Assembly (NCBI GenBank): GCA_005518185.1
Contig: RKSN01000002.1
Span: 496,001-560,000, forward strand
DNA: 64,000 bases
DNA from: Chakrabartia godavariana
GTDB taxonomy: Bacteria > Pseudomonadota > Alphaproteobacteria > Sphingomonadales > Sphingomonadaceae
Direction: 5' to 3'
Shown here: piece by piece, positions 18,473-34,038 of the stretch
Position numbering within the stretch: the first letter of the stretch is position 1
How the letters are laid out: each line of letters begins with the position of its first letter
Made by a program: the position numbers and the translations under genes
Notes under the pieces: generated by a model
What the model was told of the DNA's origin: nothing
The model's database searches: none
What the model saw: the letters and a program-made list of their open reading frames with translations, nothing else

Positions 18473-20392
18473 ATGATTTCACGCGCCAACACCGCAATAC
18501 TCGCCCTTCCTCGCTGGACGAAGCGGCTGGTTGCGGTGTGCGCCGACATCGCGATGTGCATCGGCACCGTTGCAGCCGCCTTTGCACTTCGCTTGGATGG
18601 CTGGGTGTGGCCACAGGACACAAGATGGTTTGCCTATCTCGCCTCAGTAACCTTCGCCATCCCGTTATTCGTAAGCTTCGGTCTTTACAGGGCGATTTTC
18701 CGTTATGCCGGATGGGGCGCGATGATGAGCATCGCTCGTGCATGCGCTATTTACGCCCTTATTTATTCGTTCGTCTTCACTTGGATCGGAATTGTAGAAG
18801 TTCCACGCAGCATCGGTCTGCTACAACCCATCTTGCTCTTTCTGGCCATAAGTATCTCGCGTGCCGTTGCACGCTACGTTTTGGGTGGAGAGTATCGCGA
18901 TTTGCTCCGCATTCACGAACGAAAGCGTGTGTTGATTTATGGGGCGGGATCTGCCGGTCGCCAACTCGCCGCGGCTTTGGCGAGTTCCGACGAAATGACA
19001 CTGGTCGGCTTTGTCGATGACGACGAGAGCCTCATTGGGGGGGTCCTAAACAGCAAACGAATCTACAGCGGTAGAAACCTCGCTGAAACTATCCGCGACC
19101 TCGAAGCGACAGATTTGCTTCTGGCGATCCCCTCTGCAACTCGGCAGCGACGGGCAGCAATCATTGATGATCTGCATGGTGCTCCTGTGGTCATACGGAC
19201 GCTGCCTGGTCTGATGGATCTCGCGCACGGAAGGGTCACCGTCCAGGACCTGCGCGAACTTGAAATCGAAGATTTGCTTGGACGCGAGCCTGTACCGCCA
19301 AACACACTCTTATTATCCCGCAACATCGCCGGCAAAACCGTCATGGTGTCCGGCGCAGGAGGGTCGATCGGAAGCGAACTATGTCGCCAGATTCTCGATT
19401 TGAAGCCGAAGACCCTCCTGTTGGTCGAGTTCAGCGAATTCAATCTCTATGCAATCGAACAAGAGTTGAACGCTCGTAGCGCAGCGGCTTCTGGCGACAC
19501 GGCCTCTCAAATCGTTCCTCTTCTTGCGTCGGTTCAAGACACCTCTCGGCTTGACGGTCTGTTTGAAATTTGGCGGCCTGACACCGTCTACCATGCCGCA
19601 GCCTACAAACATGTGCCTATCGTAGAGTTTAATCCTTCCGAAGGCGTGCGAAACAACGTCTTCGGAACCCTTTGCGTTGCACAGCTGGCTATGAACTTCG
19701 GTGTTAAAAACTTTGTGCTTATCAGCACCGACAAAGCGGTTCGTCCGACAAATATCATGGGCACTACAAAAAGACTGGCAGAACTCGTCTTGCAAGCCCT
19801 TGCGCGAGAGGCCAGCCAGACCAAGTTTTCAATGGTCCGTTTCGGGAATGTGTTGGGATCGAGCGGCTCGGTCGTTCCCCTCTTCCGGCACCAGATTGCC
19901 TCGGGCGGTCCGGTGACGATTACGCATCCAGAGATCACACGCTACTTCATGACCATCCCTGAAGCAGCCTCGCTCGTTATCCAGGCTGGCGCGATGGCGG
20001 CAGGAGGGGAAGTATTCCTTCTCGATATGGGCGAGCCTGTGAAGATCGCTGATCTTGCGCGGCGTATGATAGAGTTGAGCGGCCTCACGTTGAAGGGGCC
20101 GGACAACCCTGACGGAGACATCGAGATCAAATTCGTTGGCCTGAGACCTGGTGAAAAGCTCTACGAAGAGCTCCTGATTGGCGAGAATCCGGAGCCCACC
20201 TCGCATCCTCGGATCATGAAGGCGCGTGAGCACCACATCGAATGGAGGGAACTGGCGCCCCAGCTGGATACGCTCCGACAAGCCGTCGAAAATGGTGAAG
20301 TCTTCGACATCTTGGCCATTCTTAGAAATTTGGTGCCGGAGGCCAGTCTGGAAGAGCGCGGCCCATTCAGGCGAACCACCGTGACATCCTGA
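18473..20392 (+). CDS. Membrane-bound UDP-N-acetylglucosamine 4,6-dehydratase (PglF/WbpM type)
   Basis: 639 residues. Four N-terminal membrane helices (about 20-130), a first Rossmann fold with YGAGSAGRQLA (156-166), then the catalytic SDR domain with GAGGSIGSE (294-302). In the active site the usual Tyr is replaced by Met429 with Lys433 (STDKAVRPTNIMGTTKR), which is the known pattern of the FlaA1/WbpM/PglF dehydratases. The length matches WbpM (665) and PglF (590). It should convert UDP-GlcNAc to the 4-keto-6-deoxy sugar, the precursor of bacillosamine or FucNAc/QuiNAc. Last gene of the rightward block; convergent with the PglE-like aminotransferase, a likely next step. Confidence 0.93.
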   Translation: MISRANTAILALPRWTKRLVAVCADIAMCIGTVAAAFALRLDGWVWPQDTRWFAYLASVTFAIPLFVSFGLYRAIFRYAGWGAMMSIARACAIYALIYSFVFTWIGIVEVPRSIGLLQPILLFLAISISRAVARYVLGGEYRDLLRIHERKRVLIYGAGSAGRQLAAALASSDEMTLVGFVDDDESLIGGVLNSKRIYSGRNLAETIRDLEATDLLLAIPSATRQRRAAIIDDLHGAPVVIRTLPGLMDLAHGRVTVQDLRELEIEDLLGREPVPPNTLLLSRNIAGKTVMVSGAGGSIGSELCRQILDLKPKTLLLVEFSEFNLYAIEQELNARSAAASGDTASQIVPLLASVQDTSRLDGLFEIWRPDTVYHAAAYKHVPIVEFNPSEGVRNNVFGTLCVAQLAMNFGVKNFVLISTDKAVRPTNIMGTTKRLAELVLQALAREASQTKFSMVRFGNVLGSSGSVVPLFRHQIASGGPVTITHPEITRYFMTIPEAASLVIQAGAMAAGGEVFLLDMGEPVKIADLARRMIELSGLTLKGPDNPDGDIEIKFVGLRPGEKLYEELLIGENPEPTSHPRIMKAREHHIEWRELAPQLDTLRQAVENGEVFDILAILRNLVPEASLEERGPFRRTTVTS

Positions 20393-20431: not shown

Positions 20432-21628
20432 TTAACGGCAGGCAGATTTGAGGACTGCAACAACTTTCGCGCAATAATCCTCGAGCTGTACATCGGTGAT
20501 AGTCGGATGGGTCAGAAACATTAGGCTAGTCTCACCGAGCCTCTGTGCGACGGGCAGCCGCCTTGCAGGGCGACACTCCAATCCGTCGAAGGCCTTTTCG
20601 AGATACACTTCCGAGCAGCTGCCTTGGAAAACAGGGGCGCCAGCCTCAGTGCACGCTTGCACGATGCGGTCACGGTTCCAATCAGGTCGAAGACCCCCTT
20701 CCTCCACGTACGCGTAGAGGCGGTAGAATGCATGGCGGTGTTGATCCGAAGGGAGCGGGACCCTTATGGCATCCTGAAACGGCAAGAGGCTATCGACGAG
20801 GCGGCCTGCGATGTGCCGACGGCGCGCTGACCAAGTGTCCATTCGGCTGAGCTGTATCCGACCGATAGCCGCCTGCATCTCAAGCATCCGCCAGTTTGTC
20901 CCCACGCTTTCGTGCAGCCAGCGGAAGCCGGGAGCATGTGAGCGATTGTACACCGCGTCCCAGCTCTTGCCATGGTCTTTGAACGACCACATCCTGGCCC
21001 ACAATGTCTCATCCTGACAAGTGACCATACCGCCCTCGCCACCAGTCGTCATAATCTTGTCCTGACAAAACGACCAGGCACCTATATGACCGATCGCGCC
21101 AACCGACTGGCCGCGATAGCGGGCCCCGTGCGCCTGAGCGCAGTCCTCGATGACCTTAGCTCCGCAGCGACCCGCGACTGCCATGATATCACTCATCTCG
21201 CATGGCCAGCCAGCCAGGTGGACCGGGATGATAGCGCGAGTGTTTTCGGTCATGACTTCAGCTACGGTTTGTGCGCTGATGAGACCGCTATCCTTGTCGA
21301 TATCCGCAAACACCGGCTTAGCTCCTGCGTTCAGCACACAAGTCACGGAAGCGATAAAGGTACGCGGGGTCACGATGACTTCGTCGGAATGGCTGCCGCC
21401 AAAGGCTGCTCCGATACCCAACCCTTGCAGGGCCAGATCCAATGCCAACGTACCATTAGAGACAGCGATCGCTTTGTTGGCGCCGACCCAGCTTGCGAAT
21501 TCGCGTTCGAATACCCGACACTGCTCTCCAGTCCAGTAGTTCACACGATTTGATCGAAGCACTTCCGCCACCGCGTTGGCCTCTTCTTCGGTATATGACG
21601 GCCAAGGTGCCAAACTCGTATTCAGCAT
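20432..21628 (-). CDS. DegT/DnrJ/EryC1 sugar aminotransferase, PglE-like
   Basis: 398 residues from the ATG at 21628, which has GGAGAAG seven bases upstream; a frame to 21661 adds 11 residues. It starts with the typical LAPWPSYTEEEANAV...NYWTGEQ block. PLP is bound by Lys191 in SFCQDKIMTTGGEGG, with EDCAQAHGA (161-169) contacting the cofactor. The enzyme uses PLP and glutamate to aminate a keto-sugar nucleotide. Given the PglF-type dehydratase encoded convergently and the PglC-like transferase just upstream, the likely reaction is 4-amination of UDP-4-keto-6-deoxy-GlcNAc, as by PglE. The assignment of the substrate is inference. Confidence 0.9.
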   Translation of the reverse strand: MLNTSLAPWPSYTEEEANAVAEVLRSNRVNYWTGEQCRVFEREFASWVGANKAIAVSNGTLALDLALQGLGIGAAFGGSHSDEVIVTPRTFIASVTCVLNAGAKPVFADIDKDSGLISAQTVAEVMTENTRAIIPVHLAGWPCEMSDIMAVAGRCGAKVIEDCAQAHGARYRGQSVGAIGHIGAWSFCQDKIMTTGGEGGMVTCQDETLWARMWSFKDHGKSWDAVYNRSHAPGFRWLHESVGTNWRMLEMQAAIGRIQLSRMDTWSARRRHIAGRLVDSLLPFQDAIRVPLPSDQHRHAFYRLYAYVEEGGLRPDWNRDRIVQACTEAGAPVFQGSCSEVYLEKAFDGLECRPARRLPVAQRLGETSLMFLTHPTITDVQLEDYCAKVVAVLKSACR

Positions 21629-21786
21629 TTCAAATGCTTCTCCCCAGATGGAGCCGGACATCCACGGCTAGATAAGCGCTCGCTTGCCTAGCTACCGAAT
21701 TCGGATGGTTCGCCCGGACCGCTGCAGAAAGCCGATCAGTGGGCGAAATGTTGGACTGTCCACTCGCATGCCCATGTTTTGGCGTC
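21629..21786. other. 158-bp spacer in the leftward polysaccharide block
   Basis: The only sizeable gap within the leftward block, between the PglC-like and PglE-like genes. It could contain a separate promoter for the aminotransferase gene. No hairpin with T-tract or tRNA was seen. Confidence 0.35.
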
Positions 21787-22380
21787 CTAGCGCATATTAC
21801 CTGTAAACTTGCTAGTTGTGGCTTCACCATGAGCCGATACACCCTCACGCCTCAACACTTTCGCGATGGTCATCACTATTATACGCAAGTCGAGCAAAAA
21901 GTTACGATTATCGACGTACCAAAGGTCCAAAGCGAACTTTTCGTCCCAAGTCACGGCATTCCGACCATTCACCTGAGCCCATCCCGTTATACCTGGACGA
22001 ACATCATGACGGCGTGCCTGTTCTGCTGAGTAAAGAGGCAAGTATTCAACCAGCAGGGGTCGGGGGCCGACAAGACTCATTTCCCCCTTCAAAACGTTCC
22101 ATAAACCTGGCAACTCGTCTAGACTGGTCGATCGAAGCAGACGGCCGAAGCGCGTCAACCTCTCCGCGTCCGGCCGCAATTTGCCATTTGCGTCCGCGAA
22201 GTTGTTCATCGAGCGAAACTTGAACATGTTGAACAGTCGGCCATGAAGCCCTGGCCGCTCTTGGCAGAAAAGGACTGGAGTACCCAGCTTGAGCCGCACC
22301 AACAGTGCGACAATCGCGATGACTGGCGAGAGAAACAACATGGCCGAGGCGGCTATGACTATATCGAACAACCGCTTCAT
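21787..22380 (-). CDS. Initiating phosphoglycosyl transferase, PglC-like
   Basis: 197 residues, the size of the minimal monotopic phosphoglycosyl transferases such as PglC (about 200) without extra domains. N-terminal re-entrant helix (MKRLFDIVIAASAMLFLSPV), then GTPVLFCQERPG, KFRSM, the catalytic Asp-Glu dyad in STSLDELPGLWNVLKGEMSL, and VGPRPLL with PGITGWAQVNGRN. It transfers a sugar 1-phosphate from a UDP-sugar to undecaprenyl phosphate at the inner membrane and starts the repeat unit. Diacetylbacillosamine would fit the PglF, PglE and PglD-like genes in the window. It overlaps the upstream glycosyltransferase gene by four bases. Confidence 0.93.
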   Translation of the reverse strand: MKRLFDIVIAASAMLFLSPVIAIVALLVRLKLGTPVLFCQERPGLHGRLFNMFKFRSMNNFADANGKLRPDAERLTRFGRLLRSTSLDELPGLWNVLKGEMSLVGPRPLLVEYLPLYSAEQARRHDVRPGITGWAQVNGRNAVTWDEKFALDLWYVDNRNFLLDLRIIVMTIAKVLRREGVSAHGEATTSKFTGNMR

Positions 22381-23627
22381 GGCTGCCTCCCCACGTCAGC
22401 CCCCCGGTTTTGATGGGGGAAGACGACGGCTGCCATTTGGCGTGCGAGTTGCGAGTATTGGCGATTGCTTTTTATCCAAGCGCGCCCAGCCGCCCCGATG
22501 CGCGCGCGCTCTTCGCAAGGAAGCGCCGCGAGGCGAAGGATCTCTTCCCGCAACGCTTCTGCATTGCCGGCTGGAACAAAACGCCCGCCGCCGGACTCGT
22601 TTAACATGGACGGATAACCGGAATAAGCTCCGATGACCGGCCGTCCGGCAAGCAGGTAGTCGTTCAACTTGTTGAGCGACATGCCATAATCCCAGACCTT
22701 GGAAGGATAGGTGGAAAAGAATGTAACATCACAGTGTCGTAGCAGGGATTGCACCATATTTTTAGGAACTGCTGGTGCAAAGCTGACGTTTTGCAGGTCT
22801 GCAGTGTCCCGCTCAAAACGTTCCTTCAGATCACCGTCTCCGACCAATAGGAAATGGATATCCGGACAGGCGGTCATCTCGCGCGCAGTTTGAAGCAATA
22901 CCTCCAAGGCATTTGTTTGACCGATTGTCCCGGCATGGCAGACGATGAACTTTCCACGCGGAATATGGGACGTGACGTAGTCCTCCGGCAAAGGGTCCGG
23001 CTCCCCTAGTTGTGAAGCGTCAATGCCCATAGGAATACAATAAACCGGTACAGGCGCTCCCGAAACTTCGCGCACATGCTGAACCAGGTTTGGCATTGTG
23101 CCGATAACGGCGTCGCTTTTCCGATAAGCAAGTTTTTCCACCCATTGCAGCGCGACAACGAACGGATTCCGGGGACTGAAACCGCCTTCCGCGACGAGCG
23201 TCAATGGCCAGATATCCCGGACTTCGAACACAAGCCGACAGCGATACCGCGCACGAAGCAAAAGACCATTGAAAATGGTGAGAAGGGACAACGAAGACAC
23301 AATGACGACTGAAGGCGGCGGGAGCTGCTTCTTCGGCAAGCGCCAAAGCCTCCATTCAAACTCGAGCCAGCTGAAGATCCGGCCGACCGACTTTGCCCCT
23401 GAATATTTGCGCAATCTGATCCAGTGGATCTCCACATTATCAATTGCTTCAGCCAAATGCGGCCGTGCGAGGTGCCTGCTGACGAAGAGATGGTTCGAAG
23501 CGCCAGCGAACACGACAGGCCGAATGCCGAGTGCAGCGAGTTCCCGCAGCAGTAGAAACGGTCTAGAACCGACTCGATGTTCTGGAAGCCCGAAATACTT
23601 CGAGATGTACCACACAGTCTCTAACAC
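22377..23627 (-). CDS. Glycosyltransferase, GT4 family
   Basis: 416 residues with a GTG start ten bases after the amidotransferase stop. N-terminal domain begins VWYISKYFGLPEHRVGSRPF, the usual opening of WbuB/WcfI-type GT4 enzymes that act on UDP-N-acetyl sugars (FucNAc transferase branch). The C-terminal nucleotide-binding domain contains FIVCHAGTIGQTNALEVLL, FLLVGDGDLKERFE and the E-x7-E-like region GRPVIGAYSGYPSMLNESGGG. Activated sugar and acceptor cannot be fixed from sequence. It lies directly upstream of the PGT gene and downstream of the amidotransferase, so it probably adds the second or third sugar of the repeat. Confidence 0.9.
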   Translation of the reverse strand: MLETVWYISKYFGLPEHRVGSRPFLLLRELAALGIRPVVFAGASNHLFVSRHLARPHLAEAIDNVEIHWIRLRKYSGAKSVGRIFSWLEFEWRLWRLPKKQLPPPSVVIVSSLSLLTIFNGLLLRARYRCRLVFEVRDIWPLTLVAEGGFSPRNPFVVALQWVEKLAYRKSDAVIGTMPNLVQHVREVSGAPVPVYCIPMGIDASQLGEPDPLPEDYVTSHIPRGKFIVCHAGTIGQTNALEVLLQTAREMTACPDIHFLLVGDGDLKERFERDTADLQNVSFAPAVPKNMVQSLLRHCDVTFFSTYPSKVWDYGMSLNKLNDYLLAGRPVIGAYSGYPSMLNESGGGRFVPAGNAEALREEILRLAALPCEERARIGAAGRAWIKSNRQYSQLARQMAAVVFPHQNRGADVGRQP

Positions 23628-23636
23628 GGTAAGCTC

Positions 23637-25451
23637 TTAATAGAGCCGCGGGATGGCGTTGACTGTCTTCACTACCTCAGCAAACGGCAACCCGACTGCG
23701 TCGAGATACCATTTCATGTTGGCGTAGCGTGGTCGGTTTTCGTCTTCGATCAGTGCCAGAGCCTCATCCCGCGTTATTTGACCTTCGCGGATCTGATTGC
23801 TCCGGAATGTCTCATGCTCTGAAAAGCCGGCAACTGTATAGTACACATAGTTATAGAAGGCGGCGGTGCCGTCGCCGATCCGCCATGTGGTGTTTGTATC
23901 AGGTGCCTTTTCCCAGTCATACATGGCGAGACACTGGTCGACAAGACGCTCGTCCCATGTCCAATAATCAAACACGTGGAAATAATCAGTCTTGGCGTGG
24001 AAGCTGCGATAATATTCGCCAGAGATGGTGTCCCATATCGACCGATTAAAATAGCCTGGGCTTTTCGCCATCGCTCTCAGGCGAAGATATTGATAGCGCA
24101 GTTGCTTTGCAGCCCCGTTCGAGTAAACCTTGTCTTCCTCAAAATCGGGAGGAACACCCAGGAAACCGGCCTTGAAGTGCGTAGTCTCAAGCGGGTTGAC
24201 CCCCCACAAGTTGAGGGAAATGCCGGTTTGACGCTTCACCGTCTCGACGTGACGGAAAAAGTGCTTATCGCCAGCCATCAATATGTTGATCATTCCCAGA
24301 TCGGGGTTCTTCAGCCACGCAGTCAGGTTCATCCGGATGTTTCGGCGTTTAAGGCTGATATCATCTGCGACAATAATGTTTTCCACACCTAGTTCCGCGC
24401 ACATCCGACTGATGTTGCGGCGTCCCAGGTCCGTCACCATGCCCCAGTCATATGTGTAGGTGATGGGCTTCATCTTCAGTTCTTCGACGATAAGATGGAG
24501 CGCATAGCAGCTGTCCCGTCCACCCGAAAACGGAACGATACAGTCCTCGCCTTTCGCGCGCCGGAACGGCTCAACCAGATCAAATAGTTCCTGTTTCGGT
24601 TTGGGCTTGTTCCGCTGCCGATAATTTGTGCAATAATTGCAGACGCCTTCTGAATCGAAACGAATGTAGGGCATTGTTTCCGGGAGTACGCACTTTGTGC
24701 ACCGCCGGAGATTGTGCGGCTCATAAACGAGCAGCTTTTCTTCGGCAGAAGTGAGAACCAATTCCGGGATCAGGTTTTCCGTACGGACGTTCACGTCCGT
24801 CACATCGAAATCCGAACTGCTCACTGGAATGTCGATGATGGCACCCTCGCGCCTGATTTGCCGCACGTTGACGCAGCCCAACTCCTTCAGAGGAAATGCC
24901 TCTGAAGAGAAGAGTGTATCGCCTCCCTTCTCGCCGACGTAGAGGCTACCGTTGTTCGAAAACAAACACAGTTTCCCAATCTTTGGGAATACAACAGCAC
25001 ACGCCGCCACGCCTTTGCACGCATCAAGGACTGTCTTTGCTACATTATCGACATGGCCATCGCGCTCAACGGATGTTGCGGCCAACGCCGCAATGACTTC
25101 CGTGTCGATTTCCAACTCGCGGCTTTTGTCGAGAGTCTCCCAGACTTTCTCATGATTGACGATAATGCCGTTGTGCAAGACACAAACGCCGTCGCGAAGG
25201 ACAGGCTGATTGTCGCTCAGTCCGTTCGTGATCAGGCGGCTGTGGCCCATCACGACGTCGGAAGCTCCAATTTTCGTATCCGCCAGTAAGCGCGATACGT
25301 CATGATCTGCCCGCTTTACGTGATAGCTATCGGCAAAGTGATATACGAGGCCGCTGGAGTCCCTCCCGCGCTGGCGCGCGTGAGTGGCAAGTGCCTGAAG
25401 ATCCGATTTCGCCCAAGTAGAACGGGATACGATCCCGAAAATTCCGCACAT
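23637..25451 (-). CDS. Single-chain glutaminase / N-acetyl sugar amidotransferase (class II GATase fused to WbpG-like domain)
   Basis: 604 residues from the ATG at 25451, which places the catalytic Cys2 directly after Met (MCGIFGIVS); the frame continues to 25634 but those residues would mask the nucleophile. N-terminal class II glutaminase: Cys2, Arg72 (GHSRLITNG), Asn94-Gly95 (LHNGII), Asp116 (IDTEV). Residues 247-604 form a WbpG/PseA/LegF-type amidotransferase: zinc-type cysteines Cys251, Cys254, Cys271, Cys274 (RRCTKCVLPE, GVCNYCTNY) and PP-loop FSGGRDSCYALH (308-319). It should make ammonia from glutamine and use ATP to convert an acetamido group of a sugar into acetamidino. In Pseudomonas WbpG needs separate HisH/HisF-like partners; here the ammonia source is fused. 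Confidence 0.9.
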   Translation of the reverse strand: MCGIFGIVSRSTWAKSDLQALATHARQRGRDSSGLVYHFADSYHVKRADHDVSRLLADTKIGASDVVMGHSRLITNGLSDNQPVLRDGVCVLHNGIIVNHEKVWETLDKSRELEIDTEVIAALAATSVERDGHVDNVAKTVLDACKGVAACAVVFPKIGKLCLFSNNGSLYVGEKGGDTLFSSEAFPLKELGCVNVRQIRREGAIIDIPVSSSDFDVTDVNVRTENLIPELVLTSAEEKLLVYEPHNLRRCTKCVLPETMPYIRFDSEGVCNYCTNYRQRNKPKPKQELFDLVEPFRRAKGEDCIVPFSGGRDSCYALHLIVEELKMKPITYTYDWGMVTDLGRRNISRMCAELGVENIIVADDISLKRRNIRMNLTAWLKNPDLGMINILMAGDKHFFRHVETVKRQTGISLNLWGVNPLETTHFKAGFLGVPPDFEEDKVYSNGAAKQLRYQYLRLRAMAKSPGYFNRSIWDTISGEYYRSFHAKTDYFHVFDYWTWDERLVDQCLAMYDWEKAPDTNTTWRIGDGTAAFYNYVYYTVAGFSEHETFRSNQIREGQITRDEALALIEDENRPRYANMKWYLDAVGLPFAEVVKTVNAIPRLY

Positions 25452-25509: not shown

Positions 25510-26640
25510 CTATTGAGCAGACGGACGAACGAGCAAGTGACTATGATAGAAATTAATGAGCCGCTCCGCCTCGGCGCCCCAGTTGTACCTGAGTTCCACG
25601 GCGGACCGACCGCATTTGCCCATTGCCTCGGCATCCTTCGGATGATCGATTATCCAGCGCATGCAATTTGCAATAGAGGCAGAATTGCGAGGGTCAACTA
25701 ATAGTCCACAGCTAGAGTCCTCGACAATTTCACGCCAAACCGGAAAGTCTGACGCGATGACAGGCACTCCCGCAGCCATGTACTCAAACAGCTTGATCGG
25801 CAAAGTTAGCATCTCATGTTCAACCGGCTGCAAAACCACAAGTCCGGCGCGCACTTCCCCGAGGATTTGCCCCACTTTCTCGCGCGATGCCCAGCCTTCG
25901 AATATGACGGAACGGTCCCACTCGGCCATGGCCTTGGCCTGCTCCTCGGTCTTTTGGATTGCGAAGCTCCCCACCAATCTGAGCTTCGCATTCATGTCGG
26001 CCAACTGAGCCGTCGCTTCCATCATCCCGAATATGTTGCGTACTTCCGAGATGTAACCGACATAGGCGAAATGGGCAGGGCGTTGATCCAGCGAACGTGC
26101 GTCCGGCTGATGCAGTTCCTCCAGAATCGGAAAGTTACGGACCAGAACTGTCTTGGCCGGCGGAAACCGGTCAGCAATGGTCTGGGTCGGCACAACGAGG
26201 CCGTCAAAGACGCGCGCGCCAATCCATTCGGCCGCCGCAACGAAAGGTGGCAACGTTCGCTGCGCCCAGGGCGGAAGACCCGGATTGTGCTTGACCTGTT
26301 CGGGCATGTCCTCATGAACATCGTAAACGATCCTGATCCCCGCGAGCCGCAGCAGAATTGCCCAGGGCAGCAGTTCAGGATCGTGAAAATGTGCAACCTT
26401 GGGCCGCGCCTTCAAAACGGCGCGAAACATCCGCCAGCCGCCGACGAACATCCGCTTCAACCGCGGAAGCCGAGGGCCGGTATCCACAACAGAATAGCCA
26501 TGCCGGGCATCAATCTCATTGCCCAGCCCGTCCTGCACATACAGCGCCACATCGTCAAAAGCACGGGAAAGGGACGCGACCTCTTTCGAACGTATCCGGG
26601 AGTCGTCCCTCGGGTGAACCGTCGTAAAATGAATGATCAT
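25510..26640 (-). CDS. Glycosyltransferase, GT4 family
   Basis: 376 residues. Starts inside the polymerase stop (ATGA overlap). N-terminal domain has IIHFTTVHPRDDSRI, then KVAHFHDPELLPWAILLRLAG and VYDVHEDMPEQ, a pattern of GT4 enzymes close to WbpH/WbpJ-type O-antigen transferases. The C-terminal domain has FAYVGYISEVRN, IFEGWASREKVGQILGEVRAGLV and the nucleotide-sugar contact LFEYMAAGVPVIASDFPVWREIV. It transfers a sugar from a nucleotide donor to the lipid-linked repeat unit on the cytoplasmic side. With the GT at 22377 and the PGT it supports a repeat of about three sugars. Confidence 0.9.
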   Translation of the reverse strand: MIIHFTTVHPRDDSRIRSKEVASLSRAFDDVALYVQDGLGNEIDARHGYSVVDTGPRLPRLKRMFVGGWRMFRAVLKARPKVAHFHDPELLPWAILLRLAGIRIVYDVHEDMPEQVKHNPGLPPWAQRTLPPFVAAAEWIGARVFDGLVVPTQTIADRFPPAKTVLVRNFPILEELHQPDARSLDQRPAHFAYVGYISEVRNIFGMMEATAQLADMNAKLRLVGSFAIQKTEEQAKAMAEWDRSVIFEGWASREKVGQILGEVRAGLVVLQPVEHEMLTLPIKLFEYMAAGVPVIASDFPVWREIVEDSSCGLLVDPRNSASIANCMRWIIDHPKDAEAMGKCGRSAVELRYNWGAEAERLINFYHSHLLVRPSAQ

Positions 26641-27932
26641 CGCGCAGCGCTCCCCGCTAATCCCTTCGACGAGCCACTTGGAGGACTGACCAGCAAGTAT
26701 ATGAGGAGCAGCAACAGCCCGTGAGTGAGGAGGGAAGTCAGTAAATCAGCGCTGGACAGGATGTTGAATATAGTAACAAAGCTCACCGCCGCGACAAACG
26801 CATGCCCCACACGCTCAGCCACGCTGTTCAAGAAAGCAATGATGAGACCGGTCGCCATCGAGTAGGCCAAAACGCCAGGCACCCCGGCATTCGAGAAGCC
26901 GCTACCCACGATGCCTGTGTTCGCGGACGTATCCAGATCGCGAAAATACTCATAGCCGATGATAAACGGCGCAGTCAGATTATAATCACTCGTCGTGGCC
27001 CAAGAAAAGAACCGCGAAGACGACCAGTAGTAAAACGGGTTATCAGAAAAAAATTCAATGTATTTTGAGTCAAGCATCGCTGGAACGAAAAGAACCCTCC
27101 TGACAATAAGTGACGTTAAATAAGATATATCTCCAGGATAACCGAAAAAACGTGTAAACAATATTTCCATTATTGATATCGATGGAATTATGATAAAAAC
27201 ATCGGGAAAATATCTTGATATTAAACGACTATTAAAAGAAGCATATAAAAACAAAGCCACAGGCGGAGAAAACAGAACACTTTTATGGTGACTCATTCCA
27301 AACAGAATTATGGTCAAGGCCAATGCGCCTACGAAATATACATACGAGCGATTAATATAAGCTGTCACAATAATTATTGGGAGAATTACGCTGGAGACAT
27401 TTGAATAAACGTACGCAAATATCGCAGGAAGATTATCAGCGGACTCACGCCTGAACTCATAAACCCTTTCAATATCCAAGTTGAAATTTTCCAAGCCGCC
27501 ATAGAAGGCCTGCAGCGAAATGACCATGACGACGAGCGCCAGAGATGCCAGCATTAAAGCCTCGCCTCTCATGGGATGCAAATTGACAGACGGAACGCGG
27601 AACGTTGACATAAAATGGAGAGAGATCACAACTAGGAAATATATAAAAATATTCAAATTTCCCTGCCCGGAAAGAGCAATATAAACGGCAGATGGTATTA
27701 TCCAAAGATAATACACCGATATAATTATATATGATTTTGCAGTATTATTTACCTTAAAAATTAAAGAAAACGGGACCGTCATAATAAGAGCCGTCAGAAG
27801 CCCTTCGACCGTCAATGATCCGGAGAATCCCATGTACGCCCACGTAGGGACGATCTCTATATGATAAATAACACATAGAAGAACTGTATATATAAATGCC
27901 GATGCAGTGTGGTTCTTTTTCACCTGTATCAC
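26637..27932 (-). CDS. Polysaccharide repeat-unit polymerase, Wzy type
   Basis: 431 residues with about eleven or twelve hydrophobic helices and no soluble domain, flanked by wzx and a glycosyltransferase: the standard place for a Wzy polymerase. Helices can be seen near AFIYTVLLCVIYHI, IFIYFLVVISLHF, ALMLASLALVVMVI and a C-terminal LLTHGLLLLLIYLLV. A long periplasmic loop contains NPFYYWSSSRFFSWAT. Such polymerases have little sequence conservation, so the call rests on topology and context. The coding region, above all 27000-27930, is much richer in A and T than the genes around it, which suggests recent acquisition. GTG start. Confidence 0.82.
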   Translation of the reverse strand: MIQVKKNHTASAFIYTVLLCVIYHIEIVPTWAYMGFSGSLTVEGLLTALIMTVPFSLIFKVNNTAKSYIIISVYYLWIIPSAVYIALSGQGNLNIFIYFLVVISLHFMSTFRVPSVNLHPMRGEALMLASLALVVMVISLQAFYGGLENFNLDIERVYEFRRESADNLPAIFAYVYSNVSSVILPIIIVTAYINRSYVYFVGALALTIILFGMSHHKSVLFSPPVALFLYASFNSRLISRYFPDVFIIIPSISIMEILFTRFFGYPGDISYLTSLIVRRVLFVPAMLDSKYIEFFSDNPFYYWSSSRFFSWATTSDYNLTAPFIIGYEYFRDLDTSANTGIVGSGFSNAGVPGVLAYSMATGLIIAFLNSVAERVGHAFVAAVSFVTIFNILSSADLLTSLLTHGLLLLLIYLLVSPPSGSSKGLAGSAAR

Positions 27933-27962: not shown

Positions 27963-29231
27963 CTATTTATAATTTGACATAATACTGAACACCAATGCGA
28001 TGTTAAGTGCATAAAAGACGGCGCCAGCCACCGCAAACGCTTCGACGAGCACCGAACTGCAATAGTGTAGAGCAACGAGCAACGCCAGTATGCGAAAGCA
28101 TGCTCCGGCTGCTTGCAACCCCATCGCGAGGGTAAGACGTCCGGTGACGTGCAAAATGGAAAGCAACGGCGTCGCGATGAACTGCATCAGGAACATCGGT
28201 GCTAACCAAGCCACCATAATACCAGCTGGAGCCCATTCCGAGCCGAACACAAAGGGAAACGCGATTGGAGAAACTAAGCCGACCAGTAGCAATAGGGGGG
28301 CGCCCAACTTAGCCATACCCCACATCATTTTCCGGCTAAACTGCGCAAGTTCACCCTCCTGGAGCTTGTCGGGCGCTTCAGTCAGATAAACTTGGGCAAC
28401 CGAATTGCCGACGAGCATCATCGGAACGCCCAAGAGACGCATGGCAAGCATAAGATGGCCCCCACTCGCGCCATCGGCAGATCCTGCGATAATCAGAATC
28501 GAGACTTCAAGCGCCGCTGTGTTGAAGAGCGCTTCGGGAACGGAATAAATCGGAAACTGGCGATATTTGCGAGCCGCAGCTCGCAGATCGGCTGAGCGGA
28601 CGGATTTGGCAAGATGTCGGTCTCGCTTCCAGAACGATGCGGCCAGGCCCAAAAAACCAAGTCCGCTCAGCAGCATGTGCCCGAACAGCAGCCCAAAGGG
28701 ACCTGAAGTCAAAGCTCCGGCGCCGGCTTGAGTCGCGGTTCCACCAATGGCACGGGTCAGGCGCGTCTGCGCAATCAACCCAAACTGACGCCGCCTCGAC
28801 GCCCAATATTGGAAAGCATCATAAGCTGCCGCGAGAAATACGCCTGCCGGAAGCAGCCAAAGATAGGGTTTTAACGCAGGTTGCCCTATGAGACGCGATA
28901 ACTCGGCAGGCGCGAGAGCAACGCTGAGCCCAACAATGAGCGCAATCACCCCGCCCGAGCCGAGGGACAGCAGCAGGAGGTGGAGCGCGGTCGCATCGTC
29001 GCGTGGCAGCGGGATCGCAAGATTGAACCGCAAACATGCTGCCACGGTCAGCAAGCCGAGTGTCGATGCGTAAGCCGCCAACAGATTGAAGTCCGCCGGC
29101 GTGTAGAGACGTGTCAAAAGAGGAAGGGCGAGAAGCGTTACCGCTTGGGCTGCAGCGGTACCGCCTGCGAGCAGGCCAACGCTTCTAACGACCCTATTTC
29201 CCAGCCAACGCTGGATTCTAGCCCTCGCCAT
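27963..29231 (-). CDS. Lipid-linked oligosaccharide flippase, Wzx/RfbX family
   Basis: 422 residues with about twelve helices. It starts RWLGNRVVRSVGLLAGGTAAAQAVTLLALPLLTRLYTP in parts, the common N-terminus of the MOP-superfamily polysaccharide flippases (G-G-T-A-x-x-Q, then the LLTRLYTPADF motif). The second half repeats this pattern (PMMLVGNSVAQVYLTEAP). It moves undecaprenyl-pyrophosphate-linked repeat units across the inner membrane to the polymerase encoded immediately downstream (30-bp gap). Confidence 0.92.
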   Translation of the reverse strand: MARARIQRWLGNRVVRSVGLLAGGTAAAQAVTLLALPLLTRLYTPADFNLLAAYASTLGLLTVAACLRFNLAIPLPRDDATALHLLLLSLGSGGVIALIVGLSVALAPAELSRLIGQPALKPYLWLLPAGVFLAAAYDAFQYWASRRRQFGLIAQTRLTRAIGGTATQAGAGALTSGPFGLLFGHMLLSGLGFLGLAASFWKRDRHLAKSVRSADLRAAARKYRQFPIYSVPEALFNTAALEVSILIIAGSADGASGGHLMLAMRLLGVPMMLVGNSVAQVYLTEAPDKLQEGELAQFSRKMMWGMAKLGAPLLLLVGLVSPIAFPFVFGSEWAPAGIMVAWLAPMFLMQFIATPLLSILHVTGRLTLAMGLQAAGACFRILALLVALHYCSSVLVEAFAVAGAVFYALNIALVFSIMSNYK

Positions 29232-29295: not shown

Positions 29296-30621
29296 TCAGG
29301 CCTTTACCACGTTAGCGTTTGCAGCCCGATACTTCCCTCGCGTATCCACAATCAGCTGCGCATTCTCAAGGATCATGTCGTAATCAAAATCGCTGTGATC
29401 GGTCAGCAAGACGACGGCGTCGAAGGATGCAATGCTCTGCGGCGTCACCACTTCTGAAACGAGGTCAAAATGGTGTTCGCGCATCTTGGGAAACTCGGGC
29501 ACGTTCGGATCGGAATAGGCCACGATAGCGCCGCGATTCCGGAGGTGCTCCATCACGAAGACCGAGGGGGATTCGCGCATATCGTCTACATCGCGCTTGT
29601 AGGCGATGCCGAGCGCAAGAATGCGGCTGCCCTTCAGGGCCTTCTGCCGTTCATTCAAGGCATCGGCAATCTTGCTCACCACCCATTCCGGCATGTCGCG
29701 GTTGATCTCTCCCGCGAGTTCGATGAAGTGCGTGGACAGCCCATATTCGCGCGCCTTCCAGGTGAGATAGAAGGGATCGATCGGAATGCAGTGGCCGCCG
29801 AGACCAGGCCCCGGGTAGTAAGCAGTGAAGCCAAACGGCTTTGTCGCAGCCGCGTCAATCACTTCAAAAATGTCGATTCCCATCCGGTCAGCGATGAGCT
29901 TCATTTCGTTGGCCAGACCGATGTTTACGGACCGGTGAATGTTCTCGAGGAGCTTGGTCAGTTCGGCAGCCCGTGTTGAACTGACGGGGACAACACGGTC
30001 GATTACCTGCTCATACAGTGACTGACCGGCCGCTAGACAGTCTGCCGTTTCCCCGCCGACGACCTTGGGAATCGTCCGTGTCGTAAAGTTGGGATTGCCC
30101 GGGTCCTCTCTCTCCGGCGAGTAGACCAAAAAGAAGTTTTCGCCGACGTGCAAATCACGACCTTCAACGAAGGGGCGAAGCACTTCAGACGTAGTGCCCG
30201 GCCATGTCGTGCTTTCGAGAGACAGCATCTGCCCTTCCCGTAAATAGGGAGTGATCGCCTTCATCGTGTCGACGATATAGGTCAGATCGGGCTCGCGATG
30301 GGCGCTCAAAGGCGTCGGCACACAGATGATGATCGCATCAACCTCCGGAATGCGTGCAAAATCGCCAGTCGCCTCGAACCCGCTTACGACCATCTTCTGG
30401 ATATCTGTCGCCGGGATGTGCCGGATCGGCGTGCGCCCGGCATTAAGTTCTTCAACGCGTTCATGATCAATGTCGAAACCGAGCACCCTCAGCCCGACCT
30501 CCTGAAAGCGAAGGGCGAGCGGAATGCCGACATAACCAAGACCTATGATTCCGATGAGGGCCGAGCGACCGACCACACGCTGTTGGAATGCGGACAGCAA
30601 GACATTGGGAACAGCAGTCAT
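29296..30621 (-). CDS. UDP-N-acetylglucosamine 6-dehydrogenase, WbpA-like
   Basis: 441 residues from the ATG at 30621; a GTG at 30633 would add four. Rossmann motif [11 protein letters not shown], the ribose-contact FDID, and the catalytic Cys in [16 protein letters not shown] (Cys278 from this start). The block [13 protein letters not shown] just before it is a feature of the WbpA/WlbA-pathway UDP-GlcNAc dehydrogenases rather than UDP-glucose enzymes. It oxidises C6 of UDP-GlcNAc twice with NAD+ to give UDP-GlcNAcA. Next genes upstream (WbpE-, acyltransferase, WbpB-like) complete the route to UDP-2,3-diacetamido-2,3-dideoxy-glucuronic acid. Confidence 0.93.
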
Positions 30622-30648
30622 GTTCAAAACCACTTCTATTCAACGTTT

Positions 30649-31779
30649 TCAGGCGGTGGTGGAAACAGCAGCAATCACGGCCGAGCAAACCTGATCAATT
30701 TCCTCGTTCGAGAGATAGGGATGCATCGGCAGGCTGAGCACGTCGCAGGACAATTGCTCCGCAATCGGCAGCGAACCTTCCCCCCCTCCGTATGCGACAT
30801 AAGCCGGCTGGAGATGCATCGGACGAGGATAATAGACGTTCGAAGGAATGCCTGCTTCTCGTAACCGTGCCTGAACCGCGTCGCGATCCGGAACTTTGAT
30901 CGTGTACTGCGCCCACGCGAAACGGTCATTACCTTCAGCGAGAAACGGCGTGGCGACGTGTCCGGAAAGTGCGGACGAATAAGCCAAGGATACCGCATGG
31001 CGCTTTTCCAATTCTTCCGCGAAGACTGCAAGTTTTGGCAAGAGAATTGCCGCCTGAAGCGTGTCCAGGCGGCTGTTCACACCCACGCGGACGACATCAT
31101 ATTTTTCTTGACCCTTGCCATGCAGGCAAATCGAACGGATCGTGTCGGCTATCTCGTCACTGTCCGTAAAGATCGCACCGCCGTCACCATAGCACCCGAG
31201 TGGCTTGGCTGGAAAAAAGCTTGTTGTCGTGATGTCAGCCATCCCTGAGCCAACGCGCTGGCCACGGAAACTTGCCCCGAAACCCTGAGCGGCATCCGAA
31301 ATAAACACCAGTCCATACTTGTCAGATATCGCGCGAGCGCGGTCATAATCGACTGGCTGACCAAATAGATCGACGGTGAGCAAGGCTGCGGGCCTGAGCT
31401 TTGCGTCCTGCTTGACGCGCTCAATGGCAGCCTCTGCACTGGCATAATCAAGGTTGAAGGTTTGGGAGTCAGAATCGACGAATACCGGGGTCGCTCCCAA
31501 AAGCAGGATCACTTCAGCCGTTGCCGTATATGTGAAGCTTGGAACGAAAACAGCATCACCGCGGCCAATGCCAAGTGCCATCATGGCCAATTGGAGTGCG
31601 TCGGTCCCGTTTGCGCAGCTGACAACGCGCTTTGCTCCACTAAACTGAGCGAGTTCATCTTCGAGTTCGCGAACCTCGGATCCTTGGATGAATGCTTGCC
31701 TTTCCAACACCCCGTTGATCCGCAGATCGATGTCGGATTTCAGAAGTTGATACTGAGTTTTTAGATCAATGAATTGCAT
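30649..31779 (-). CDS. DegT-family aminotransferase, WbpE-like
   Basis: 376 residues from the ATG at 31779 (GGGAAG upstream); a GTG at 31785 is two codons earlier. It begins MQFIDLKTQYQLLKSDID, close to the usual WbpE/WlbC start. PLP lysine is Lys192 in SFFPAKPLGCYGDGG, with SDAAQGFGA (161-169) and the cofactor-phosphate block CANGTDALQLA. Expected reaction: glutamate-dependent amination at C3 of UDP-3-keto-GlcNAcA, the product of the WbpB-like oxidoreductase. It is separated by 14 bp from the acyltransferase gene upstream. Confidence 0.92.
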   Translation of the reverse strand: MQFIDLKTQYQLLKSDIDLRINGVLERQAFIQGSEVRELEDELAQFSGAKRVVSCANGTDALQLAMMALGIGRGDAVFVPSFTYTATAEVILLLGATPVFVDSDSQTFNLDYASAEAAIERVKQDAKLRPAALLTVDLFGQPVDYDRARAISDKYGLVFISDAAQGFGASFRGQRVGSGMADITTTSFFPAKPLGCYGDGGAIFTDSDEIADTIRSICLHGKGQEKYDVVRVGVNSRLDTLQAAILLPKLAVFAEELEKRHAVSLAYSSALSGHVATPFLAEGNDRFAWAQYTIKVPDRDAVQARLREAGIPSNVYYPRPMHLQPAYVAYGGGEGSLPIAEQLSCDVLSLPMHPYLSNEEIDQVCSAVIAAVSTTA

Positions 31780-31793
31780 AAACACTTCCCGAG

Positions 31794-32684
31794 TTAGCGA
31801 ATGGAACGGATATGATCCAAGAAACGACTATGCTCGATCGCGAAGTTCCCGCTCACGACCTCGCGATCAGCGACATTTCGCGTTACAACCGCACCGATAC
31901 TCACTTTTGCACCAGCGCCAATTGTCAAACCGTTTTTGATGACTGAGGAGGGACCGATATAGGCGCCATCGCCAATGATCGCGCGCCCCAAAATGTTGAC
32001 GAGCGCGCAGATCTGCACCCTTTTCCCGATCTGGACGTCGTGCGCGATATATACGAGATTATCGGCAACGACTTCTTCACCAAGCGTTGTATAGCCGCCA
32101 AACAACGCCTTCGCGACGCACACGTTACTCAGCAATTCGACAAAGGGCATGAGCCGCACGCCGCCAATCTGGGGGACGATACGCTGCCTTCCTCCGATAA
32201 TCCCCGTATTGAAGCCCGGCATGCCAAGACTCACTCCGGAATGGAGGACACAATCACTTTCAATGGTGACTCCAGGCCTGACGCACACATTCGGACCTAT
32301 CCAGCTTCTGGCACCAATCTTGACCCCATGATCGGCAATACGAGCGGTCGGATCGATTACAGCGGCGGAGTCGATCTCGGTCTCCATCAAACGAAGCCGC
32401 GCATTGTGTTGCTCCGCGAGACGTGCGTGGATCTCGGAATGCGCCGCATCGGGATCGTCTGTGACCGCAACAGCCAAAGCTTGATCGACAAGTTCGGCAA
32501 CGTCGGGCTTGGTGATCACTGCAGCTACGTTTGCGTTTTCGTTAACCTCGCTAACGTATTTGGCGGACCTTAGAGGCACGCATAAGCCGCGAAGCGGCGT
32601 CGATAGCTTCCCGGTAACGTCAAAGGAGCCGTCGCGCAAAATCCGCAAACCAGCCAACCCAGCAAAATCGGAAAGCCGCGTCAC
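31794..32684 (-). CDS. LpxD-like left-handed beta-helix acyltransferase, probable sugar N-acetyltransferase
   Basis: 296 residues. An N-terminal domain of about 100 residues resembles the uridine-binding part of LpxD, followed by hexapeptide repeats (VKIGARSWIGPNVCVRPG, IIGDGAYIGPSSVIKNG). The probable catalytic His215 is in NLVYIAHDVQIG, the same environment as the LpxD active-site histidine. The Pseudomonas pathway uses the short WbpD acetyltransferase for the 3-amino group of UDP-GlcNAc3NA; no WbpD-like gene is present, and this gene sits exactly between the WbpB- and WbpE-like genes, so it likely does that step. Its start overlaps the stop of the oxidoreductase gene by four bases. Confidence 0.85.
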   Translation of the reverse strand: MTRLSDFAGLAGLRILRDGSFDVTGKLSTPLRGLCVPLRSAKYVSEVNENANVAAVITKPDVAELVDQALAVAVTDDPDAAHSEIHARLAEQHNARLRLMETEIDSAAVIDPTARIADHGVKIGARSWIGPNVCVRPGVTIESDCVLHSGVSLGMPGFNTGIIGGRQRIVPQIGGVRLMPFVELLSNVCVAKALFGGYTTLGEEVVADNLVYIAHDVQIGKRVQICALVNILGRAIIGDGAYIGPSSVIKNGLTIGAGAKVSIGAVVTRNVADREVVSGNFAIEHSRFLDHIRSIR

Positions 32685-33661
32685 GCGACACCCGCAGCTT
32701 GAGAAGCACGACGCAGCAGCCGAAGTACAGGGATCGCTTCCGCTGGTCCAGTAACGGCCGTTTGCCCTGTCCCAATTGATGTTAGGAATGCGCTCATTTC
32801 CTGATGCAATGGCTCAAGCTGCGGCCACTCGATTGGTTCGCCAGTGCCTTTCACAAAGGCCGGAGAGACGCCCCCAAAATCGACATAGTTTTTGTAGAGA
32901 ACCAGCTTACGGTCTCGTTCCGCGTGCGTATCTTCAAAGATGATCGCGCCGCGCGTACCCAGCACAACTAATTTATGCTCTTTGAACGGCGATAGCCACG
33001 ACACGTTAACTTGCGCGGTGAGCACATCGGTGAAACGGAGCGAAATAGAAAATTGATCGGGAATATCGGGATTAACCACCCGGACTGCCAAGCCTTCGAC
33101 GGACTGCGGTTCTTGTCCGGTAACGCCGAGCACCATTGAAAAGTCATGGGGTGCCATGCTCCACAATGCATTTTCCTCTGTGCGGATAGCGCCCGGATTC
33201 AGGCGGTTCGAAGTGATGTGACGAACTTCGCCGATAACGCCGGAAACGATGACCTCCTTCAACCTCACAAAAGCCGGGTGATATTGCAGCAAATGCCCGA
33301 CCATGAGCGGGCGCCGCACCGAGGCAGCAAGCGCGGACAGCTCTGCAGCTTCATCCAAATGAAGCGCGAGCGGCTTTTCAACAAAAACCGCCTTCTTATT
33401 TTTGAGCGCACGAAGCGCGAGCCCGTAGTGTTCTACAGCTGGGGCAGCTATTGCTACACCGTCGATACCATCCTGAAATGCGGCCTCAACGTCCGACGTC
33501 ACTTTAGCGCCAAGCCCGGCAACATAAGCGTCAAGCTGCTCGACAGCAGGATCAATAACAATTTCAAGCGCGCCCAATTCGGACAGTACCCGGGCTATGT
33601 TCCTGCCCCACCGGCCACAGCCGATGAGTGCTACTCTCGGCACAGACTCAGACCTGATCAC
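32681..33661 (-). CDS. Gfo/Idh/MocA oxidoreductase, WbpB/WlbA-like
   Basis: 326 residues from the GTG at 33661, chosen because GGAAGG lies seven bases upstream and the Rossmann strand VALIGCGRWGRNIA follows at once; the frame extends to 33826 without family similarity. The conserved Glu-Lys-Pro motif is in VFVEKPLALH, and the catalytic-region His in WSMAPHDFSM. The fold and neighbours point to NAD-dependent oxidation of C3 of UDP-GlcNAcA. Known WbpB/WlbA enzymes recycle their NADH by reducing 2-oxoglutarate, which the WbpE-like enzyme regenerates. First gene of the long leftward block. Confidence 0.9.
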   Translation of the reverse strand: MIRSESVPRVALIGCGRWGRNIARVLSELGALEIVIDPAVEQLDAYVAGLGAKVTSDVEAAFQDGIDGVAIAAPAVEHYGLALRALKNKKAVFVEKPLALHLDEAAELSALAASVRRPLMVGHLLQYHPAFVRLKEVIVSGVIGEVRHITSNRLNPGAIRTEENALWSMAPHDFSMVLGVTGQEPQSVEGLAVRVVNPDIPDQFSISLRFTDVLTAQVNVSWLSPFKEHKLVVLGTRGAIIFEDTHAERDRKLVLYKNYVDFGGVSPAFVKGTGEPIEWPQLEPLHQEMSAFLTSIGTGQTAVTGPAEAIPVLRLLRRASQAAGVA

Positions 33662-34038
33662 AAACAATCCTTCCAGTTTCTCAAAAACGCGGAGATGACA
33701 ACAAAGAACGGTGTTTAAAAGTTGAGAGACCCCAGACTTCCGAGAGGCTGAAAACCATGAATCTTTGCGAAGCCCTATGTCGGAACGATGCCTTCGGCAA
33801 GCTAGAATCGGGGACTGTCGAAGCACATCGGCGGAAGGCTGAGATGGTGGCAGATGGACGCTGCTCGCGCGAAGAGAGACTTACAGCCGATGTGTCGAGC
33901 GGCCTGCCGCAAGTCTACTTCAAACAGAATTTACGAAAAACTCGTTCTTTCAACGAATTATTTTTGCAATTCAAAAAGATCCCAAGACCAAGAAGCTGAT
34001 CTGGTGCAGGGCGAGCGTTTGATACCACAGGCGGATCC
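33662..34038. other. 377-bp intergenic region, probable promoter of the leftward polysaccharide block
   Basis: No recognisable gene. An 80-codon frame on the plus strand (33757-33999) has no resemblance to a known family and ends in low-complexity basic sequence. An A/T-rich pocket at about 33925-33985 (ACAGAATTTACG, AATTATTTTTGC) stands out from the GC-rich flanks and is the best place for a promoter reading left into the WbpB-like gene, which would give a leader near 300 nt. I could not fix -35 and -10 elements. Confidence 0.4.

Follow-up and report, generated by a model that had tools for sequence, protein, structure and literature searches.

The window, a 64,000-nucleotide stretch of the Chakrabartia godavariana genome (GenBank assembly GCA_005518185.1, contig RKSN01000002.1, positions 496,001 to 560,000), carries on its minus strand a gene for a protein in which a class II glutaminase is fused to a relative of the zinc/PP-loop N-acetyl-sugar amidotransferases (NASAT). 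In window positions, the gene and its two halves lie as follows.

23637..25451, minus strand: fused class II glutaminase and NASAT-like amidotransferase, 604 amino acids, start ATG at 25451
24732..25451, minus strand: glutaminase half (N-terminal nucleophile (Ntn) type, GATase_6/7), about residues 1-240, with Cys2 as nucleophile; boundary approximate, from alignment
23640..24719, minus strand: NASAT-like half, about residues 245-604, with Cys 251/254/271/274 and the PP-loop at 308-314 (24510-24530)

The minus-strand frame runs uninterrupted from the ATG at 25451 to the stop that ends at 23637, and its product begins MCGIFG; the plus-strand frame at the same place is interrupted by stops. An alternative, longer ATG frame (665 amino acids from 25634) is also present, and we took the ATG at 25451 (shortly preceded by GAGGGT) as the start because a class II glutaminase needs a Cys directly after the start Met. 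Cys2, Arg72, Asn94-Gly95 and Asp116 are all in place, as are the four Cys of the second half and its PP-loop (FSGGRDS).

By Pfam the N-terminal half is a class II (Ntn) glutaminase (GATase_6, 43.3 bits with a cut-off of 27; GATase_7, 36.2 bits with a cut-off of 25), and the N-terminal parts of the NCBIfam models for GlmS, PurF and AsnB match the same region. The C-terminal half bears, by sequence, the CxxC...CxxC motif and SGGxDS PP-loop of the N-acetyl sugar amidotransferases (as defined in a section of PMC10607449), and is matched over residues 250-572 by NCBIfam TIGR03573 (WbuX) at 132.8 bits (E 1.8e-38), under the cut-off of 203.2; two relatives, from E. coli and from genome G544, also score under it (145.4 and 145.3 bits). 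The first-ranked entry of a PDB sequence search was 8wex, the Legionella NASAT. An AlphaFold2 model (from an alignment of 71 sequences) reached a mean predicted local distance difference test (pLDDT) of 91.3 and a predicted template-modelling score (pTM) of 0.91; it contains the fold of 8wex, which took ranks 1-2 in Foldseek (E 2.5e-14, TM-score by target 0.58) and was followed by asparagine synthetase and then by GlmS and PurF chains. Over the whole query, the TM-score reached 0.39 at best in 50 Foldseek rows, so none of those 50 resembles the entire fused protein.

The original prediction, made from the letters of the window, had described a single 604-residue chain with all class II glutaminase residues, followed by a synthetase part unlike that of asparagine synthetase B but in the same domain order; the chain is present as described, on a strand that the prediction had left unnamed, and the domain matches bear out the order. 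The structure prediction that it proposed gave a confident model of a chain whose synthetase Cys and PP-loop residues are present in the sequence. Its assignment of the second half to the WbpG/PseA type stands for the four Cys and the PP-loop, but the domain is a distant relative, below the TIGR03573 cut-off and differing at the 66 positions discussed further on.

The pair of domains, for which the same prediction had suggested a search across genomes, recurs as a broad family. In a genome-contig scan (the best 80 of 297 relatives, picked by similarity, and therefore a lower bound) the match starts at residue 1 of the fusion in 79 of the 80 loci and at residue 219 in the remaining one (L098), while L066 and L099 are broken by a stop and a frameshift; the scan rules out that the fusion is a unique one-off. 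Record titles of the fused loci name Pseudomonadota, Bacteroidota, Actinomycetota, Planctomycetota, Campylobacterales, Verrucomicrobia, Clostridia and Prochlorococcus, although many of these are contigs of metagenome-assembled genomes, for which the taxon in the title may be wrong. Two Agrobacterium plasmids carry the fusion at 67% identity and a Solidesulfovibrio plasmid at 41%, and a DNA-level search found it in 2 of 5,426 E. coli genomes (a lower bound). Among 299 Pseudomonadota genomes, TIGR03573 matched over its cut-off in 32 and the fused form occurred in 2 (the window's own genome and G082). Of 60 genomes searched as relatives (own genome included) 59 gave a match, yet full-length in none but the own genome and elsewhere to one half or part of it only, so that the window gene was probably gained. 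In RefSeq the relatives are annotated as glucosamine 6-phosphate synthetase, 7-cyano-7-deazaguanine synthase or hypothetical protein, and a literature search over titles and abstracts of open papers (most subscription papers lying outside its scope) returned none describing a glutaminase-NASAT fusion.

A mainly phage-borne gene was considered and dropped: of two IMG/VR scans, the first found 3 related loci and the second retained 80 out of 99, among which only the same 3 match beyond the end of the glutaminase, and a phage collection yielded one match, to the N-terminal part, in an Alcaligenes phage. The fusion does occur in contigs called viral (L002:3001-4824 and L003, IMG/VR), and the next long frame of L002 presumably resembles a T4-type portal protein.

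Conservation was assessed in 81 fused sequences of full length, which come from 77 of the 80 loci and from the window, Agrobacterium, a viral contig and Solidesulfovibrio. Cys2, Arg72 and Asn94 are each kept in 79, Asp116 in 80 and Gly95 in 81; the four Cys are kept in 81, 81, 80 and 80 (both lower counts owing to one row with unknown residues, L036), and SGGRDS in 81 of 81. Together with the open frame, this conservation lies far beyond chance and rules out a misread or accidental fusion. In a tree of 114 NASAT domains (81 fused and 33 standalone, quick method) the fused rows fall into one long-branched group (SH-aLRT 99) along with L004 and L098, which have no glutaminase half. The tree requires three state changes and is readable as one fusion followed by two losses, with the limits that the program warned about long branches and that L004 and L098 had been retrieved with fused queries. 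Such a placement, with the 66 distinguishing positions, marks the fused NASATs as a separate, old branch.

Standalone N-acetyl sugar amidotransferases usually have a HisH/HisF partner, and none accompanies the window fusion. Its genome (rated 100% complete) holds a single TIGR03573 match, the fusion itself, and one HisH over the cut-off, on contig C3 (the window lies on C2); the WbuZ model found a HisF-like protein (278 bits) and a HisA-like neighbour (105 bits), both beside that HisH, and a stray match of 25.7 bits on C1. The controls were 25 standalone-NASAT loci, each taken from a different one of the 32 Pseudomonadota genomes in which TIGR03573 matched over its cut-off. In the flanks as fetched, HisH or HisF occurred in 14 of 80 fused and 19 of 25 standalone loci (Fisher p 1.4e-7); 64 of the 80 have neither HisH/HisF nor a standalone NASAT, 11 have both, 3 have HisH/HisF only and 2 the NASAT only. 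The upstream flank was then extended by as much as 20 kb for the 37 fused loci (of the 80) that lie on long contigs and for the 25 controls, some of which were cut short by contig ends. With these long flanks the HisH and HisF pair was found in 8 of the 37 fused loci, each of which also has a standalone NASAT, and in none of the other 29; among the standalone loci 19 of 25 have the pair (Fisher p 3e-5). Since the own genome has its one HisH and one HisF elsewhere and fused loci usually have neither, the analysis supports what the original prediction had supposed, and an internal ammonia supply in place of HisH/HisF is favoured.

Long frames among the controls turned out not to be hidden glutaminase fusions: that of L200 belongs to the NASAT family only, and the 805-residue frame of L202 (L202:202-2619, genome G067) joins a barrel of the HisF2/WbuZ type (residues 122-363) to an ordinary NASAT (434-783; 309 bits, over the WbuX cut-off). 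The latter means that the tying of a NASAT to an ammonia path arose in more than one way.

Around the fusion, the window holds the following genes.

18473..20392, plus strand: PglF/WbpM-like nucleoside diphosphate-sugar 4,6-dehydratase
20432..21661, minus strand: DegT sugar aminotransferase, PglE-like (61% to the Agrobacterium copy)
21787..22380, minus strand: initiating sugar-phosphate transferase, PglC/WcaJ C-terminal type
22377..23627, minus strand: GT4 glycosyltransferase, 9 bases after the fusion (NF007640 WcaI below cut-off; 46.5% to the E. coli counterpart)
25510..26640, minus strand: GT4 glycosyltransferase upstream of the fusion (no NCBIfam match at 1e-15; 33% identical to its E. coli counterpart)
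26637..27932, minus strand: Wzy-like polymerase (no family match; 31% identical to the E. coli cluster's gene annotated as O-antigen polymerase)
27963..29231, minus strand: Wzx-like flippase (39% to the E. coli counterpart)
29296..30633, minus strand: nucleotide-sugar 6-dehydrogenase, WbpA-like (TIGR03026 over cut-off; 32% to E. coli WbpA)
30649..31785, minus strand: DegT aminotransferase, WbpE-like (48.9% to E. coli WbpE)
31794..32684, minus strand: LpxD-like N-acyltransferase in the place of WbpD (27.8% to E. coli WbpD)
32681..33826, minus strand: Gfo/Idh/MocA oxidoreductase, WbpB-like (NF040723 below cut-off)
34039..35343, minus strand: UDP-ManNAc dehydrogenase, WecC (NF008286, 571.8 bits, cut-off 459)
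35327..36466, minus strand: UDP-GlcNAc 2-epimerase, WecB type (Met/His/Arg at the three diagnostic sites)
45250-45894: NeuD/PglD-like acetyltransferase, apart from the cluster
51333-52739: second initiating transferase, XrtA/PEP-CTERM type, away from the cluster (TIGR03013 over cut-off)

The E. coli counterparts belong to the O-antigen cluster of strain Z1323CEC0003 (L240:4956-18009, between galF and gnd), which reads wbpB, wbpA, wbpD, wbpE, wzx, wzy, GT4, wbpI, fusion, GT4 and two frameshifted transposases; the wbp names were assigned here by sequence comparison (wbpA through the TviB model, over its cut-off), and the fusion is annotated as glucosamine 6-phosphate synthetase. Between galF and gnd we found no further sugar-making gene and no second hisH or hisF, an ordinary his operon lying nearby. 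The cluster's 2-epimerase is closest to a solved UDP-GlcNAc3NAcA 2-epimerase (380 bits, against 305 for the next kind). A 2017 paper reportedly likens, by its title, the O-antigen of E. albertii O1 to that of P. aeruginosa O5, and may already list such a gene; PMC5622975 gives KY574559 for serotype O1.1. Considering the identities of Wzx, Wzy and GT4, the repeat units of the window and E. coli clusters are probably related, with a QuiNAc4N-type starter in the window.

Across the family the common order is GT4 - fusion - GT4 - PglC - PglD - PglE - PglF. The GT4 after the fusion (22377..23627 in the window) is the most constant neighbour: of 44 loci counted, 35 have it at +1 and all 44 have it on the same strand (for neighbour counts the fused gene was recognised in 75 of 85 loci). 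The genes for 2,3-diacetamido-hexuronates are found farther upstream. With long flanks, WbpA, WbpD and WbpE occur together at at least 40% identity in 18 of 37 fused and 2 of 25 standalone loci (p 8e-4), and in G544 (L250) the fusion is preceded by genes resembling WbpA, B, D and E. An apparent absence of WbpB was abandoned, as the window's WbpB query found it in 1 of 80 loci but 18 of 80 had it after the E. coli WbpB was added. By a three-residue signature taken from part of PMC10622841 (Ala/Tyr/Trp for the UDP-GlcNAc3NAcA type), the 2-epimerases recognised in fused loci are of that type in 8 of 8 cases, as compared with 1 of 5 in the controls; these counts are small because the recognition pattern catches only part of the epimerases. 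The best-supported family-wide substrate is a 2,3-diacetamido-hexuronate, the only sugar for which the E. coli cluster has genes and the one to which the epimerases point; our best guess is ManNAc3NAcA or GlcNAc3NAcA.

We reason that the fusion is probably a self-contained, glutamine-dependent sugar amidine synthase that makes an acetamidino sugar. This reading is supported by the architecture, the conservation, the single fused group, the genome with no dedicated HisH/HisF, the residence in surface-polysaccharide clusters and the family-wide link to 2,3-diacetamido-hexuronate genes. Glutamine hydrolysis, ammonia transfer, adenylation of an amide oxygen and displacement of AMP follow from the general chemistry of the two families joined in the fusion. 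Glutamine would be hydrolysed at Cys2 by the N-terminal half, and the ammonia would travel inside the protein, through a putative tunnel, to the C-terminal half, where the PP-loop with ATP (yielding AMP and pyrophosphate, PPi) would activate the carbonyl oxygen of the N-acetyl group on a nucleotide-activated sugar; ammonia would then displace AMP and leave an acetamidino group. A single chain would in this way do the work of a WbpG-type enzyme, HisH2 and HisF2. The cleavage of ATP to AMP and PPi has been proposed for a NASAT from its structure, rather than from an assay, in a passage of PMC10607449.

Several observations weigh against this reading. The HisH/HisF comparison sets fused loci from many phyla against controls that are all Pseudomonadota, and the standalone-NASAT query misses diverged copies, being found in only 12 of the 19 controls that have HisH/HisF. 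Without the added flank (9-10 kb) WbpA, D and E do not differ (3 of 37 fused, 2 of 25 standalone), nor do WbpD and E differ significantly (9 of 37 and 2 of 25, p 0.17). As many as 66 positions are at least 95% invariant in the fused rows and at most 15% in the standalone ones, beside the Cys set and PP-loop common to both, which, along with the WbuX score below its cut-off, means that chemistry or substrate may differ and the same substrate cannot be assumed. The fusion stands in one locus with a standalone NASAT, HisH and HisF in an Agrobacterium plasmid (L017/L021), G082, L232, L031, L077, L080 and L090, so it is not simply a replacement everywhere; it could there be a second, chemically distinct amidination system acting on different N-acyl groups (e.g., at N-2 and N-3 of a single 2,3-diamino-uronate, or on two residues within the same repeat). 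The repeat units would then be amidinated twice and strongly cationic, of a kind not described so far, an idea to which we give little credence. L050 and L082 have HisH/HisF-like matches without a standalone NASAT, and in L048 (28-10818) HisH-HisF lie directly before the fusion with no standalone NASAT found within 20 kb (the upstream frames there presumably resemble NeuC and NeuA). The glutaminase residues are lost together in L088 (187-1968; Ser2, Gly72, Ser94, with Asp116 kept), and L089 (9001-10803) has Pro2, Gly72, Asp94 and Thr116, both with the NASAT half retained. The losses in L088 and L089, the arrangement of L048 and the existence of relatives with no glutaminase half (L004, L098) would suit a glutaminase half that is a structural leftover, with ammonia coming from HisH/HisF or from solution; we hold this to be very improbable, for the catalytic residues are kept in 79 of 81 sequences and neither the window's genome nor 29 of 37 long-flank fused loci have a dedicated HisH/HisF. 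The window's own 2-epimerase is WecB-type, unlike the 8 of 8 in fused loci, which makes the substrate of the window enzyme less certain.

Two further explanations keep the enzyme active and change what it makes. An AsnB-like activation of the C6 carboxylate of a uronic acid would give a uronamide: glutaminase and PP-loop follow one another as in AsnB, uronic acid genes occur in many long-flank loci, asparagine synthetase comes next after 8wex in the structure search, and a portion of PMC3210612 reports a Vibrio vulnificus polysaccharide with a 2,3-diamino-glucuronamide. This seems to us unlikely, in that the synthetase half matches NASAT (8wex, TIGR03573) and retains its Cys set, AsnB models cover the N-terminal half only, and a separate AsnB-like gene is present in 14 of 80 fused loci. 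Amidine chemistry could instead act on the 4-N-acetyl group of QuiNAc4NAc, a bacillosamine-type sugar to which the conserved downstream genes belong, as the common order and the joint presence of PglC and PglD (19 of 37 fused, 4 of 25 standalone loci) would have it; however, PglC/D/E/F genes are absent from the E. coli cluster that carries the fusion (which had already weakened bacillosamine as an early candidate), L091 is without PglD/E/F, L083 without PglC/D/E/F matches, and the term QuiNAc4NAm was not found in the search of open papers, all of which leaves it a doubtful option. The original prediction had placed the window gene in a 2,3-diamino-uronic acid locus, and this link holds across the family with long flanks, but the window has WecB/WecC (for ManNAcA) and bacillosamine-type PglF/PglE/PglC besides its Wbp-like genes, and this mixture and the WecB-type epimerase leave more than one candidate for its amidinated sugar. 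The acyltransferase in the WbpD place being LpxD-like, the C3 acyl group may not be acetyl in the window; our guess for its substrate would be GlcNAc3N-acyl-A, with ManNAcA or QuiNAc4NAc as alternatives.

If the fusion is a sugar amidine synthase, a single protein would carry out sugar amidination, glutamine alone being enough to assay it, and acetamidino sugars would be predictable in O-antigen and exopolysaccharide clusters without HisH/HisF (e.g., that of E. coli Z1323CEC0003). It would also suggest a correct name for a broad family that now goes under the three RefSeq labels given above.

Among known systems, GAT-QueC (archaeosine synthase) offers a precedent as a fusion of a glutaminase and a PP-loop enzyme with an amidine product; its synthetase half differs, being QueC, which we take to be a PP-loop enzyme, and it acts on deazaguanine. 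QueC is not among the Pfam and NCBIfam matches of the window fusion up to E 0.1. Parts of PMC5485725 and PMC6884629 describe GAT-QueC as a glutamine amidotransferase domain fused to QueC, expression of which gives archaeosine, bearing a formamidine. The original prediction had contrasted the fusion with known enzymes that need a separate ammonia source; HisH/HisF is indeed usual in standalone loci, but GAT-QueC makes the combination of glutaminase, PP-loop and amidine less of a departure. Asparagine synthetase B shares the order of glutaminase and PP-loop synthetase, yet TIGR01536 reaches 43.6 bits (cut-off 267.1) over residues 2-197 only; GlmS shares the N-terminal glutaminase, but the fusion has no isomerase half and TIGR01135 gives 60.6 bits (cut-off 418.05) over residues 2-190 only. 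The HisF2-NASAT of L202 likewise holds NASAT and ammonia path in one chain, with a HisF-type barrel instead of the glutaminase. By description only, Tanf_01265 of Tannerella forsythia is comparable (605 amino acids with an AsnB domain by prediction; an excerpt of PMC6120980 proposes that it accounts for the acetamidino group on pseudaminic acid), and the Sphingomonas exopolysaccharide locus outlined in part of PMC11340318 has the ordinary arrangement, in which the HisF2 and HisH types are encoded apart from the WbuX enzyme. With WbpG, WbuX and the Legionella NASAT (8wex), as far as a section of PMC10607449 presents them, the fusion has in common the tetra-Cys motif, the PP-loop, the C-terminal fold and the residence in surface-polysaccharide loci; it differs from them in having its own class II glutaminase and usually no HisH/HisF partner, an Arg in SGGRDS (81 of 81) and an extra segment at about residues 379-385 that is absent in 31 of 33 standalone rows.

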